From Acetivibrio thermocellus ATCC 27405 (GTDB lineage Bacteria > Bacillota > Clostridia > Acetivibrionales > Acetivibrionaceae), in NCBI RefSeq assembly GCF_000015865.1, contig NC_009012.1:2473081-2537080 (forward strand): a stretch of 64,000 bases of DNA, given 5' to 3'. How positions within the stretch are numbered: the stretch's first letter is position 1; each line of letters opens with the position of its first letter. Both the position numbers and the translations under genes were made by a program. Below the pieces are notes generated by a model that saw only the letters and a program-made list of their open reading frames with translations, searched no databases and was not told the origin of the DNA. Shown piece by piece: positions 18,792-23,560 of this stretch.

Positions 18792-20756
18792 TTACTGAAC
18801 CTTGGTTCCGCTGTTTATCTCTTTGTCAATCGTCACCAGTACCAGGTCCTTGTCATCCGAAGCGGCAAGAATCATACCCTGCGACTCTATTCCCCTGAGT
18901 TTTACCGGCTTTAAGTTTGCCACCAGCACAACGTATTTACCCTTTAATTCCTCCGGAGAGTAGTACTTTGCAATACCGGACACCACCTGGCGTACTTCAT
19001 TGCCAACTTCAATCTTTAGTTTCAGCAACTTGTCGGCATTTTCAACCTTCTGAGCCTCAAGAACCTTGCCAACCCTCAAATCCAGCTTCTCAAAATCCTC
19101 TATGGTGATATATTCATTCTTTTCCGCATCCTTTTTCTCCGTTTCCTGCTTCGGTGATTGCTTTTCCTTATTTTCAGCCGCAGCCAAAGTGAGCTTTTCC
19201 AATTCCTCCAGCTCTTTCTTAACATCAATTCTCGGGAACAAGGGTTCTCCTTTGTTCACAGCGGCACCTTCAGGATATACTCCCCATTTCTTTGCAGTTT
19301 CCCACTCCACATACTTTTTGTCGTTTATACCCAGCTGATGCCATATCTTTTCAGGAGTTTCAGGCATAAACGGCTGTATGAGTATGGAAACTATTCTGAT
19401 ACTTTCCGCAAGATTGTATAAAACAGCGGCAAGTCTTGCCTTGTTTTCTTCACTTTTTGCCAGTGCCCACGGCATTGTCTCGTCAATATACTTGTTGGTT
19501 CTGGAAATGGCTTTCCAGATTTCAGTAAGCGCCGTACTGAACTGCAAACGGTCAAGCAGTTCCTCAACCTTTTGAGGTGTATCCGTCACAGTCTTTATAA
19601 GGTCGTCGTCAAATTCTCCCGCCTGTCTTTCCTGCGGCAGCTTCCCTCCAAAATATTTGTCAATCATGGCAACGGTCCTGCTGACAAGATTTCCAAGGTC
19701 GTTTGCCAAGTCTGAATTAATCCTGTTTATCAATGCTTCATTTGAAAATACTCCGTCCGAACCGAAAGGAACCTCTCTTAAGAGGAAATACCTTATCGCG
19801 TCAACACCGTACTTTTCAACAAGCACAACAGGATCGACCACATTTCCCTTGGACTTGGACATTTTTCCGCCCTCAAGAAGGAGCCAGCCATGGCCAAATA
19901 CCTGCTTCGGCAAAGGCTCACCCAAAGCCATGAGCATTGCAGGCCATATGATGGTGTGGAAACGCACTATTTCCTTTCCCACAAGATGAACATCCGCAGG
20001 CCAGTACTTGCGGTAATCCGAATCGTCCTCGGACATGTAGTTAAGGGCGGTAATATAGTTGGAAAGGGCGTCAATCCAAACATATACCACGTGCTTGTCA
20101 TCAAAGGACACCGGTATTCCCCAGTCAAAGGTGGTTCTGGACACGCAAAGGTCTTCAAGCCCCGGCCTTAAGAAATTGTTCAGCATCTCGTTCTGTCTGG
20201 AAACAGGCTGTATAAAATCCGGATTCTCCTCGATATGTTTTATCAGCCGGTCCTGATATTTGGAAAGCCTGAAGAAATAGCTCTCCTCTTTTGTAAGTTC
20301 CACTTCCCTTCCGCAGTCGGGACATTTTCCGTCAACCAGCTGTGTCTTCGTCCAGAAAGACTCACAAGGAGTGCAATACCAGCCTTCATATTCACTCTTG
20401 TAAATATCTCCCTGGTCGTAGAGCTTTTTAAATATCTTCTGCACAGTCTTCTCATGGTGGGGATCCGTCGTTCTGATAAACCTGTCGTTGGTTATTTTCA
20501 AAAGCTTCCACAGTTCCTTGATTCCGGCCACAATTTCATCCACATACTGTTTCGGGGTAACTCCCTTTTCCTTCGCCTTGCGTTCAATCTTCTGTCCATG
20601 CTCATCCGTTCCCGTAAGAAACATTACATCGTAACCTTTCAGCCTTTTGTATCTTGCCACGGCATCCGCCGCAACAGTAGTGTATGAGTGGCCTATATGT
20701 AACTTGTCGCTCGGGTAATAAATGGGCGTTGTAATGTAAAAAGTCTTTCTATCCAT
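18792..20756 (-). CDS. metG: methionyl-tRNA synthetase
   Basis: 654 residues. Class I synthetase with the HIGH motif (KLHIGHSYT, about residue 20), KMSKSKGN near 298, and a zinc knuckle CTPCESFW...CPDCG. The C-terminal 110 residues (from EYITIEDFEKLDLRVGKVLE) form the Trbp111/EMAP-like tRNA-binding domain used for dimerisation, preceded by a Lys/Glu-rich linker. It charges tRNA-Met and tRNA-fMet. The start has AAGGAGG in a good place. I saw no T-box in the 230-bp leader. Confidence 0.97.
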   Translation of the reverse strand: MDRKTFYITTPIYYPSDKLHIGHSYTTVAADAVARYKRLKGYDVMFLTGTDEHGQKIERKAKEKGVTPKQYVDEIVAGIKELWKLLKITNDRFIRTTDPHHEKTVQKIFKKLYDQGDIYKSEYEGWYCTPCESFWTKTQLVDGKCPDCGREVELTKEESYFFRLSKYQDRLIKHIEENPDFIQPVSRQNEMLNNFLRPGLEDLCVSRTTFDWGIPVSFDDKHVVYVWIDALSNYITALNYMSEDDSDYRKYWPADVHLVGKEIVRFHTIIWPAMLMALGEPLPKQVFGHGWLLLEGGKMSKSKGNVVDPVVLVEKYGVDAIRYFLLREVPFGSDGVFSNEALINRINSDLANDLGNLVSRTVAMIDKYFGGKLPQERQAGEFDDDLIKTVTDTPQKVEELLDRLQFSTALTEIWKAISRTNKYIDETMPWALAKSEENKARLAAVLYNLAESIRIVSILIQPFMPETPEKIWHQLGINDKKYVEWETAKKWGVYPEGAAVNKGEPLFPRIDVKKELEELEKLTLAAAENKEKQSPKQETEKKDAEKNEYITIEDFEKLDLRVGKVLEAQKVENADKLLKLKIEVGNEVRQVVSGIAKYYSPEELKGKYVVLVANLKPVKLRGIESQGMILAASDDKDLVLVTIDKEINSGTKVQ

Positions 20757-20996
20757 CTATTTTCCTCCTTGTATAAATAAAACATTACTGGATAATAGTT
20801 TCTGATTAATTATTGCCGTTCAAACTTGCCATTAATACTAATATACATATATACTATTTATTTTTCAAGGAAATTGAGATTATTGAACCAATTTTTTCAC
20901 AATTCCTTTCATAATCTTTTTAATGCACGCATAAAATGGGAAGAATAATATTATATTGAAGCGGAAAATATTTTTCGGCTTTTAAGGAGGAAAATT

Positions 20997-22040
20997 ATGA
21001 TTACCCGGTGCTGTCACGGCCCCAGGCTGGTACTGAAGTGCATCAGCGACATATATCCAAAATCCCGCTCCCTTTTCAGGGAGTATGGAATTTTTGAAGA
21101 CAAATATGACAATATGGAAGGCTTTTCCCTGCAGATGAAAAAACTTCCCGCCCGGGAGGCAGGCATTTATGCGCTCTATCCCGGAGTAAACCTTGACAAT
21201 ACGCTGGATTTTATAATATCATTTCAGACCATCGACCGGTGTATTAACCATATTTGCAGCAAAATCAAAGACAAAGACGAACTTCTGATAGGCCGCCTTT
21301 ATCTTTCACTAAGAGACGCGGTTGACCCTAAAAGAAGAATCTCCGTCGGTTACATAAACGGTCTTGACAGCAAATACGTTTCAACCATAATAAAGCTTGT
21401 GGAAAGGTGCAGAAACCAGGTTGTAATGCTGCCTTCATACAACCTTGTCATAACCCGGCTGAAAAAATTCATTCAAATGTACTCGGATTTTATGACCTGT
21501 TCCCATTTGGATAAAGAATTAAGAAACAAAAAAATTGAGGAATGGGTGGACAGGTATTATGATAAAAGTACAGGCATATCCAAAACAGAAATAATCACCG
21601 CATCGGCATCCCCTCTTCTTGTATTCGTTCTTTTTGCCTGTGCCCACGACCCGTACCTTACCAGGGAAGAAGTGGACAACATATGGGATGCATATTTCCC
21701 ATGGATTTGCGGACTTCATGCACTCCTGTACAATTTTGTCAATGTAAATGATGTATTCGGAAACAACAATAATCTTGCATTTTATTATAAAAATTTAAAA
21801 ATGTATGAAGACAAAATCACATTTTTTATTGAAAAGTCTCTGGAAAGCTGCAACAAACTCAAATATCCGGAATTTCACAGAACCGCGGTCAAAATGATAA
21901 TTGCCCTCTATCTTTCGAATCCCCAGGCTTATCATGGAATGAACAGGCTCGCAAGCACAAATATCATGAAAAAATCCGGTTCTGCGGCACGTTTTTACTA
22001 CAACCTGTGCAAATTACTGAGACTTTCCGGTAAGTTCTGA
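20997..22040 (+). CDS. DUF2600 / YtpB-like (tetraprenyl-beta-curcumene synthase family) protein
   Basis: 347 residues. Blocks match what I recall of the DUF2600 family: REAGIYALYP, FIISFQTIDRCINHICSK, YFPWICGLHALLYNF, FHRTAVKMIIALYLSNP and a C-terminal RLA...SGSAARFYYNLCK. B. subtilis YtpB cyclises tetraprenyl diphosphate and is a class IB terpene synthase. In YtpB the two aligned blocks carry Asp-rich motifs (DYLDNLCD and DYFIDQEED as I remember them). Here they read DRCINHICSK and YNFVNVNDVF, so most of those Asp are missing and activity is doubtful. Single gene, AAGGAGG upstream, convergent with spmB. Confidence 0.8.
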   Translation: MITRCCHGPRLVLKCISDIYPKSRSLFREYGIFEDKYDNMEGFSLQMKKLPAREAGIYALYPGVNLDNTLDFIISFQTIDRCINHICSKIKDKDELLIGRLYLSLRDAVDPKRRISVGYINGLDSKYVSTIIKLVERCRNQVVMLPSYNLVITRLKKFIQMYSDFMTCSHLDKELRNKKIEEWVDRYYDKSTGISKTEIITASASPLLVFVLFACAHDPYLTREEVDNIWDAYFPWICGLHALLYNFVNVNDVFGNNNNLAFYYKNLKMYEDKITFFIEKSLESCNKLKYPEFHRTAVKMIIALYLSNPQAYHGMNRLASTNIMKKSGSAARFYYNLCKLLRLSGKF

Positions 22041-22044
22041 TTTC

Positions 22045-22578
22045 TCATCCGCCGAAAACCTTCGTACATATCCATACGGCGGCAATAACACCGGCAAAAT
22101 CGGCTATAAGGGCGGCAGCCAGAGTATGCCGTATGTTTTTTATACCCACCGCTCCGAAATACACTGCAAGAGTATAAAATATGGTTTCAGTGGAACCCAT
22201 GAAAGTTGACGCCAGGCGTCCTACAAAAGAGTCCGGCCCATACATTTTGAATATGTCGGACAGCATTGCCAAAGATGCACTCCCGGAAATAGGACGAAGA
22301 AAAACCATGGGCAAAGCCTCCGTCGGTATCCTTAAAAAATCGGCGGCAGGTCTCACGGCAAAAACCAAAAGATCCAGCGCTCCCGAAGCTCTAAACACCC
22401 CGACTGCAACCATAAGCCCCACCAGCGGCGGTATAATCCTTAAAACAGTGGTTATGCCTTCCTTTGCCCCCTCCAAAAAAACGTCATACACTTTCACACC
22501 CTTGTATATCCCGGCAGACAAGATAACAAAAATCAACGCCGGTATGGCATAAGAAGACAGTTCTTTTATAAAACTCAT
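22045..22578 (-). CDS. spmB: spore maturation protein B
   Basis: 177-residue polytopic membrane protein of the SpmB/nucleoside-recognition (Gate) family: GVFRASGALDLLVFAVRPA and LRPISGSASLAMLSDIF are typical. With SpmA it is needed for spore core dehydration and heat resistance in Bacillus and Clostridium. It overlaps spmA by 4 bp (ATGA), so translation is coupled. Confidence 0.92.
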   Translation of the reverse strand: MSFIKELSSYAIPALIFVILSAGIYKGVKVYDVFLEGAKEGITTVLRIIPPLVGLMVAVGVFRASGALDLLVFAVRPAADFLRIPTEALPMVFLRPISGSASLAMLSDIFKMYGPDSFVGRLASTFMGSTETIFYTLAVYFGAVGIKNIRHTLAAALIADFAGVIAAVWICTKVFGG

Positions 22579-23207
22579 GCTCTCCCCCGTCCCGTTTTGT
22601 TCTCGAATCTCTTTTTAGCCTGGGATTTGCCTTTGAAAAAATATGACAATGTTTTTGCAGCAACGATTCCCGTAATAAAGGCGCAAATGCTTGCAACCCA
22701 TATGGTGCCTATAACCTCCGCAGGATTCTTCGACCCGAAGGACGCCCTTAGTGCAATTATAGTTGCAGGAATAAACTGAATACAGGATGTGTTCAGAACG
22801 AGAAACATGCTCATTTCATCTGTGGCAGTGTCTTTGTCGGGATTTAGTTTCTGAAGCTCATTCATGGCCTTTATACCCAACGGCGTTGCCGCATTGCCAA
22901 GACCTAAAAAGTTTGCCACAAGATTCATGACAATGGCTCCCGACGCAGGATGTCCCTTCGGTATCCCCGGAAACAAAAACTCCATAACAGGCCTTACGGT
23001 CTTTGCGATGCTTCTTACAATTCCGCTCTTTTCCGCAACCTCCATAAGTCCCGTCCACAGACACATAATTCCTAAAAGACCTATGCTTATCTCCACGGCA
23101 TTTTTGGATGAGTCCACCACCGCCTGTGTAATCTCATCAACTCTTCCGTTCATTATGCCGACCACAAAACCCGTCACAAGCATTACAAACCAGATATAAT
23201 TTAACAC
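22575..23207 (-). CDS. spmA: spore maturation protein A
   Basis: 210 residues. It begins with GTG at 23207 as (M)LNYIWFVMLVTGFVVGIMNG, the conserved SpmA start; the longer in-frame extension to 23282 does not look coding. Gate-domain membrane protein with FLGLGNAATPLGIKAMNELQ, the SpmA signature. First gene of a two-gene operon with spmB. A dacB/dacF gene, often next to spmAB, is absent. Confidence 0.92.
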   Translation of the reverse strand: MLNYIWFVMLVTGFVVGIMNGRVDEITQAVVDSSKNAVEISIGLLGIMCLWTGLMEVAEKSGIVRSIAKTVRPVMEFLFPGIPKGHPASGAIVMNLVANFLGLGNAATPLGIKAMNELQKLNPDKDTATDEMSMFLVLNTSCIQFIPATIIALRASFGSKNPAEVIGTIWVASICAFITGIVAAKTLSYFFKGKSQAKKRFENKTGRGRA

Positions 23208-23560
23208 AGCGCAAGCCCCGTTTAAACGTATTAATACTAAATAATGTATATGAGACGATTTAGGACAATATACCACTCCCAAATTTCAAATTAACCCATC
23301 AATTTCAATTTTTGCGGCATGATTAAATTGTCGAATTTCAGAATATGATTTTTAAATGAATTTGCCAGTTATATATTGGTTTAATATACTTTTATTTACA
23401 TAGCTTAATTTAAGCAAAAGTATTCCTATTTGTTTTATTAATTTTAAGACGAAAGTAATTTGATGCTTTTTGTGACATTATGAAAAAATAGAATTACTAT
23501 TAACTTACAATCTCACCACAAATTATTATTGAATTTAATTGAATTTTTTTTAAAATATTG
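23208..23560. other. AT-rich divergent intergenic region between spmA and abrB
   Basis: About 350 bp, very AT-rich, with no open frame of interest. It should hold the spmAB promoter on the minus strand; the abrB promoter is at its right end. I could not pick out a sporulation-sigma consensus with confidence. Confidence 0.5.

Follow-up and report, generated by a model that had tools for sequence, protein, structure and literature searches.

A DUF2600 gene of Acetivibrio thermocellus retained without the metal motifs of class IB terpene synthases

What is a terpene synthase kept for once the residues that bind its metal ions have gone? The question is raised by a DUF2600 gene in a 64,000-nucleotide stretch of the Acetivibrio thermocellus ATCC 27405 genome (hereafter the window), a genome held in a single contig of 3,843,301 bases. 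In Bacillus subtilis, the family member YtpB converts heptaprenyl diphosphate into tetraprenyl curcumene under the control of sigma-M and sigma-E; it is expressed under sigma-E during sporulation, and its product affects spore hydrophobicity and has been given a role as a spore lipid (PMC11708026). Sporulene, a derivative of that product, is made in the mother cell (PMC13123705). Class IB enzymes of this kind carry two acidic motifs, DYLDNLxD and DY(F,L,W)IDxxED (PMC7839719), and an original prediction, made from the sequence of the window, held that both have been lost from a gene that is otherwise intact. Here, we describe the gene and its predicted fold, its distribution in the order, the partner gene that has disappeared together with the motifs, and the reasons for which the protein may have been retained.

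An intact gene without its metal site

The gene occupies positions 20997–22040 of the plus strand, closely preceded by AAGGAGG, and its ATG-initiated open reading frame encodes a full-length DUF2600 protein of 347 aa. The Pfam model PF10776 (DUF2600) matches residues 44–342 with an E-value of 6.1e-65 and 219.7 bits, against a curated cut-off of 25 bits, so both the family assignment and the claim that the gene is intact hold. None of the NCBIfam models was informative for the window protein, for one intact relative or for one relative from the group g6, described below. In the collection of named genomes, a protein search returned a single locus, in Acetivibrio mesophilus N2K1.

The sole PDB sequence match of the protein is BalTS, a class IB (large) terpene synthase (5yo8, 6loo and 6lop; E 1.4e-34). 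An AlphaFold2 model built on 51 aligned members (pLDDT 89.3, pTM 0.90) resembles BalTS with a TM-score of 0.85–0.86 in a Foldseek search of the PDB, and VIA aligns it to 6loo with a Z-score of 38.3 and an rmsd of 2.6 over 336 residues at 24% identity; the runner-up, a class I diterpene synthase, reaches a Z-score of 17.6. The window protein is predicted to adopt the all-helical BalTS fold overall, and the low-confidence loops predicted at residues 35–48 and 255–257 make the shape of its cavity uncertain. The model of a g6 member, from genome G039, is also helical and confident (pLDDT 92.5, pTM 0.92).

To place the metal motifs, we used an alignment of 96 members: 26 degenerate and 18 intact proteins from the order, 50 intact proteins from outside it, and the damaged copies of genomes G006 and G008. 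Of those 50, 47 were drawn from the 143 other carriers of the phylum sample (the 30 with the best scores and 17 with low or middling ones), and the class sample supplied the other 3. The N-terminal part of the G004 protein is out of frame in this alignment. The former first motif (residues 81–88, positions 21237–21260 of the plus strand; DYLDNLxD in the family, PMC7839719) now reads RCINHICS. Columns 81, 84 and 88 hold D, D and D in 68/68 intact members and R, N and S in the window protein, none of its three Asp being left. The former second motif (residues 245–253, positions 21729–21755 of the plus strand; DY[FLW]IDxxED in the family, PMC7839719) reads YNFVNVNDV. Here columns 245, 249, 252 and 253 hold D, D, E or D, and D in all 68, and Y, N, D and V in the window protein, so that none of the four acids is identical and one position is acidic. 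Across both motifs, 0/7 columns are identical and 1/7 is acidic, and the alignment of DUF2600 members that had been proposed for mapping the Mg-binding Asp thus bears out the predicted loss of the motifs.

The two stretches in which the original prediction had located the motifs, DRCINHICSK and YNFVNVNDVF, are indeed both degenerate, but the D that opens the first (residue 80) is not the first Asp of the family: in the alignment, it falls opposite the residue preceding the motif, a Ser in 62/68 intact members, which rules out that assignment. D80 is retained in 4/4 members of the genus and is the sole new acid near either motif among the columns identical in all four; N249 is likewise retained in 4/4. 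A conserved set of Asp elsewhere in the protein, which would have spoken against the loss, was looked for, and only the lone D80 was found. The same loss in independent genomes of the genus excludes a sequencing error.

The damage extends to other conserved residues of the pocket. H102, K169 and K310, invariant in 68/68 intact members, are Y, S and Q in the window protein, while C138, W183, E198, F234, P235, L244 and Y264 are retained in 26/26 degenerate members. With the motif acids and the three pocket residues replaced and the seven core residues retained, the catalytic surface has gone and the core has been kept.

A degenerate branch and its lost partner synthase

Within the genus, DUF2600 is found in four of six genomes and missing from the other two; all four carriers are without metal motifs, with 0, 1, 1 and 2 of the seven motif columns identical. 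Across the order, 46/58 genomes carry the gene and 12/58 do not. Among the carriers, 18 are intact and 26 degenerate; to these are added G008, which is missing 18 residues in frame, motif 2 among them, and G006, broken into two frames. The degenerate members come from the genus (g1, four), g6 (11/11 genomes), the families f6 (six) and f9 (three), and genomes G027 and G037. In g6, all 11 proteins have 3–4 acids in the seven columns together with both K169 and K310, and G034 (f9) retains none of the seven acids. Outside the order, 50/50 members examined are intact. The degenerate protein is therefore a branch rather than an oddity, given 4/4 carriers in the genus and 26/46 in the order, and in the open-licence literature on the family we found no study of such proteins. 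The G004 copy is frame-broken, but we do not count it among true pseudogenes, because the same assembly also splits holB, SpoIVA and a polyprenyl synthase.

In intact genomes, the DUF2600 gene has a partner on the opposite strand, a polyprenyl synthase (PF00348) that NCBIfam matches best to its model of heptaprenyl diphosphate synthase component II (258.7 bits, under the curated cut-off of 456.55). It directly adjoins DUF2600 in 16/18 intact genomes and in G008, and lies elsewhere in G044 and G047. This HepT-like synthase is present in 18/18 intact genomes, 0/26 degenerate genomes and 0/12 genomes without DUF2600. When one copy was searched against the 58 genomes, it scored at least 303 bits in 19 (the 18 intact genomes and G008), and none of the remaining 39 (the 26 degenerate, the 12 without DUF2600, and G006) exceeded 185 bits; the best match in the window genome, at 143.7 bits, shows that it has no dedicated synthase. 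The partner copies form their own clade in a quick tree (SH-aLRT 99), and in G006 a remnant of 50 synthase residues (58% identity) survives next to the broken DUF2600 gene. The association between synthase and motifs gives a Fisher's exact p of 1e-12 with kinship ignored, but counting by independent pairs on well-supported branches leaves only three pairs, of which 3/3 agree (sign test p 0.25). What is new here is that the presence of the HepT-like synthase tracks intact DUF2600 across the order, and this linked loss offers a simple genomic marker for sorting working from non-working DUF2600 genes.

The loss can also be read from the spacing of the locus. In the window, the gene is flanked by metG (methionine-tRNA ligase by family match; 18792–20756, minus strand), its divergent upstream neighbour, and, after a gap of 4 bases (22041–22044) between its stop codon and the end of the next gene, by two minus-strand genes with Pfam Gate domains at 22045–22578 and 22575–23282, which we take to be SpmB-like and SpmA-like, respectively. 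The interval between DUF2600 and spmB spans 1131–4522 bp and holds the polyprenyl synthase in the 9 intact genomes that have the two genes at this site, compared with 9–441 bp in 19 degenerate genomes; it is about 206 bp in G034. In the 20 of 26 degenerate genomes whose gene order was checked (six g6 genomes were left out), the gene adjoins spmB in 20/20 and metG in 18/20; G039 has tatD there, and the G037 sequence begins near a contig end. The intact gene and its synthase sit at the same metG–spmB place in nine intact genomes, and in g2, G041 and G028 the intact pair is at another locus.

The sporulation neighbourhood invoked by the original prediction is thus real to the extent that the gene adjoins the SpmA/SpmB-like pair, but the link is positional only: the gene lies on the opposite strand and hence outside that operon, and its convergent orientation does not imply shared expression. 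An upstream alignment of the DUF2600 gene yielded no convincing sporulation promoter. Within 20760–20996, on the minus strand, a block conserved from g1 to g6 (TTGAAA-N17-TATATT) reads as a housekeeping-type promoter for metG. SpoIVA, found in 56/58 genomes of the order (the exception with intact DUF2600, G047, has no match), is near-universal whatever the state of DUF2600 and does not discriminate.

Several other features of these loci were observed along the way. The sequence CGCATAAAATGGGAAGAATAA at 20928–20948, 5' of DUF2600, is nearly identical in G005 and G004 and is not so in G003; it has one match in the window and none in 100 shuffles. In g2 (L070–L072 and L069), the DUF2600–synthase pair sits beside genes that read as FabF-type ketosynthases, and in G006, G010 and G012 an apparent AONS-type aminotransferase gene is also beside it. 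In G050 (L236, 5088–6576), TetR regulator-like and flavin-reductase-like genes take the usual spmA–spmB place, and no spmAB match was found there between metG and abrB.

Constraint on the gene and its history

The degenerate gene is under purifying selection. Its NG86 dN/dS between the window genome and G005 is 0.17, and the ratio ranges over 0.07–0.26 in 14 degenerate pairs and 0.10–0.19 in 6 intact pairs, with dS not computable in 4/26 pairs and values of dS near 1 close to saturation. Over a longer frame in the same two genomes, DUF2600 has the highest ratio of seven genes (0.193, against 0.051–0.147 for its six neighbours), so constraint may be partly relaxed; together, the values describe a window gene that is neither neutral nor strongly conserved. 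After large divergence, the frame is open in 25/26 degenerate members, G004 being the exception.

How the degenerate state came to be so widespread admits two accounts. It may descend from an ancient non-catalytic paralogue, lost to catalysis once and then differentially retained or transferred, an account to which we give somewhat less than even odds. The gene trees, from which G006 was left out, lean this way: without the motif columns, the degenerate members fall on one side of a branch with support of 20/71, recovered in 17% of bootstraps, and in a smaller set that keeps these columns and includes the G041 copy, the support is 87/87; the clade of the genus receives 100/100 in both. G041 also holds an intact copy with its synthase and a second, degenerate copy beside metG, broken by two stops, which joins the degenerate clade of its family (99/97). 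Against a single loss, the degenerate state has to change 6 times on a quickly searched tree of nine neighbouring proteins (built with no mixture model and no outgroup, and with 10/51 rows under half filled), the AU test does not reject a gene tree in which family f1 forms a single clade (p 0.435), long branches may attract each other, and the nine intact pairs in the metG–spmB place show that the degenerate genes sit where the enzyme itself is found.

The other account is more tentative still. The class IB terpene synthases of this single order of spore-forming clostridia might repeatedly have become non-catalytic in place, losing motifs and synthase each time, with the gene beside spmB kept under constraint by an ancestral second function, perhaps the binding of spore isoprenoids, that outlived the enzyme. 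The choice between one loss and several bears on history rather than function, and a single loss is compatible with the protein having become a pseudoenzyme.

What the protein may do

With no means of binding a diphosphate–Mg cluster, no dedicated synthase and no SqhC-type enzyme of the sesquarterpene pathway (HepS/HepT, YtpB, SqhC), the window protein is very likely no longer a class I cyclase. The last of these points is not decisive: PF13243 has 0 matches in the window genome, but most intact genomes of the order have no SqhC either. Some squalene-hopene cyclase match occurs in 18/58 genomes; the two genomes with matches above 200 bits, G016 and G030, both carry the degenerate form of DUF2600. 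In these two, G016:C1:4063215-4064153 and G030:C8:138501-142124 (g6) are true squalene-hopene-cyclase-type genes, two of them close together in G030, and hopanoid synthesis is possible there.

The reading we favour, with a probability of roughly 0.6 for the whole of it, is as follows. The ancestor would have been a large terpene synthase of class IB, akin to YtpB and BalTS. The forebears of the genus would have lost the two acidic motifs that bind Mg, further conserved residues of the pocket and the adjoining HepT-like synthase, and the protein would no longer ionise prenyl diphosphates by the known mechanism. Its helical fold would have been kept under purifying selection as that of a non-catalytic protein, whose old cavity or surface most likely binds an isoprenoid, another hydrophobic ligand or a protein partner, possibly in sporulating cells. 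The absence of catalysis, the binding and the time of expression are all things that we infer. Since the protein has been preserved after the metal site and the partner synthase had gone, it has probably taken on a new, non-enzymatic job, and a binding or scaffold role would be the likeliest reason for its retention. Of the two possibilities raised originally, a non-catalytic branch is well supported by the lost motif acids, H102, K169, K310 and synthase together with purifying selection, and a changed substrate may yet apply, above all to the other degenerate lineages that keep 2–4 acids.

That the window protein has remained an enzyme, working through an altered metal site or altered chemistry (for example, with D80, N249 and D252 as new ligands) and fed by the remaining long-chain synthase, is improbable. 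D80 and N249 are the residues retained throughout the genus, D252 falls in a column of motif 2, and all g6 proteins keep acids and both lysines; yet D252 varies within the genus (D, A, E, E), and the window lineage has lost K169 in 4/4 members, H102 in 4/4 and K310 in 2/4. As for a supply of substrate, the window genome does have a second PF00348 gene beside a PF07456 gene resembling heptaprenyl synthase component I. With both genes present, the cell may go on making a long-chain prenyl diphosphate, which speaks against a complete loss of the pathway. The clade of this second synthase is also found, however, in the intact genomes G035, G044 and G047; being common to intact genomes, it is no substitute for the lost partner and is read as serving another pathway, perhaps that of a quinone. 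The polyprenyl synthase, ApbE, PF07456 and pyridine-nucleotide oxidoreductase genes lie together at L243 1241-6420 (G000:C1 about 686740-691919) and are possibly a quinone or electron-transfer cluster.

Equally doubtful is a relic heading for loss, its pathway gone and the gene surviving only through recent decay: such decay is visible in the sister genus g2 (the broken gene and synthase remnant of G006, the deletion in G008), in the two stops of the G041 copy and the broken G004 frame, and in the absence of the gene from 2/6 genomes of the genus and 12/58 of the order, but it sits badly with the open frames of the other degenerate members, an assembly of G004 that splits other genes too, the low dN/dS throughout and a degenerate form retained in every g6 genome.

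Should the protein prove to be a pseudoenzyme that has been retained, a second function may have been present in the enzyme all along. Family-based annotation would name the window protein a terpene synthase, though that chemistry is very likely gone, and the same misannotation would affect this industrial cellulose degrader and its relatives alike.

Three known systems help to place the protein. BalTS is its relative in sequence and in predicted fold, but the stretches of BalTS that align with the former motifs read DYLDNLCD and DYFIDQEED, and the window protein has lost both. YtpB, a tetraprenyl-beta-curcumene synthase, belongs to the same DUF2600 family, and the B. subtilis control genome was matched in the family search; the window genome differs in being without an SqhC-type cyclase and a dedicated HepT-like synthase, and its protein in the lost motifs. 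CspC, the spore serine pseudoprotease of Clostridium difficile as described in PMC4619724, is unrelated in fold and pathway, and its role as a germinant receptor has been tested, whereas that of the window protein is proposed; what the two would share is that a spore-forming clostridium has kept the fold of an enzyme but not its catalysis.
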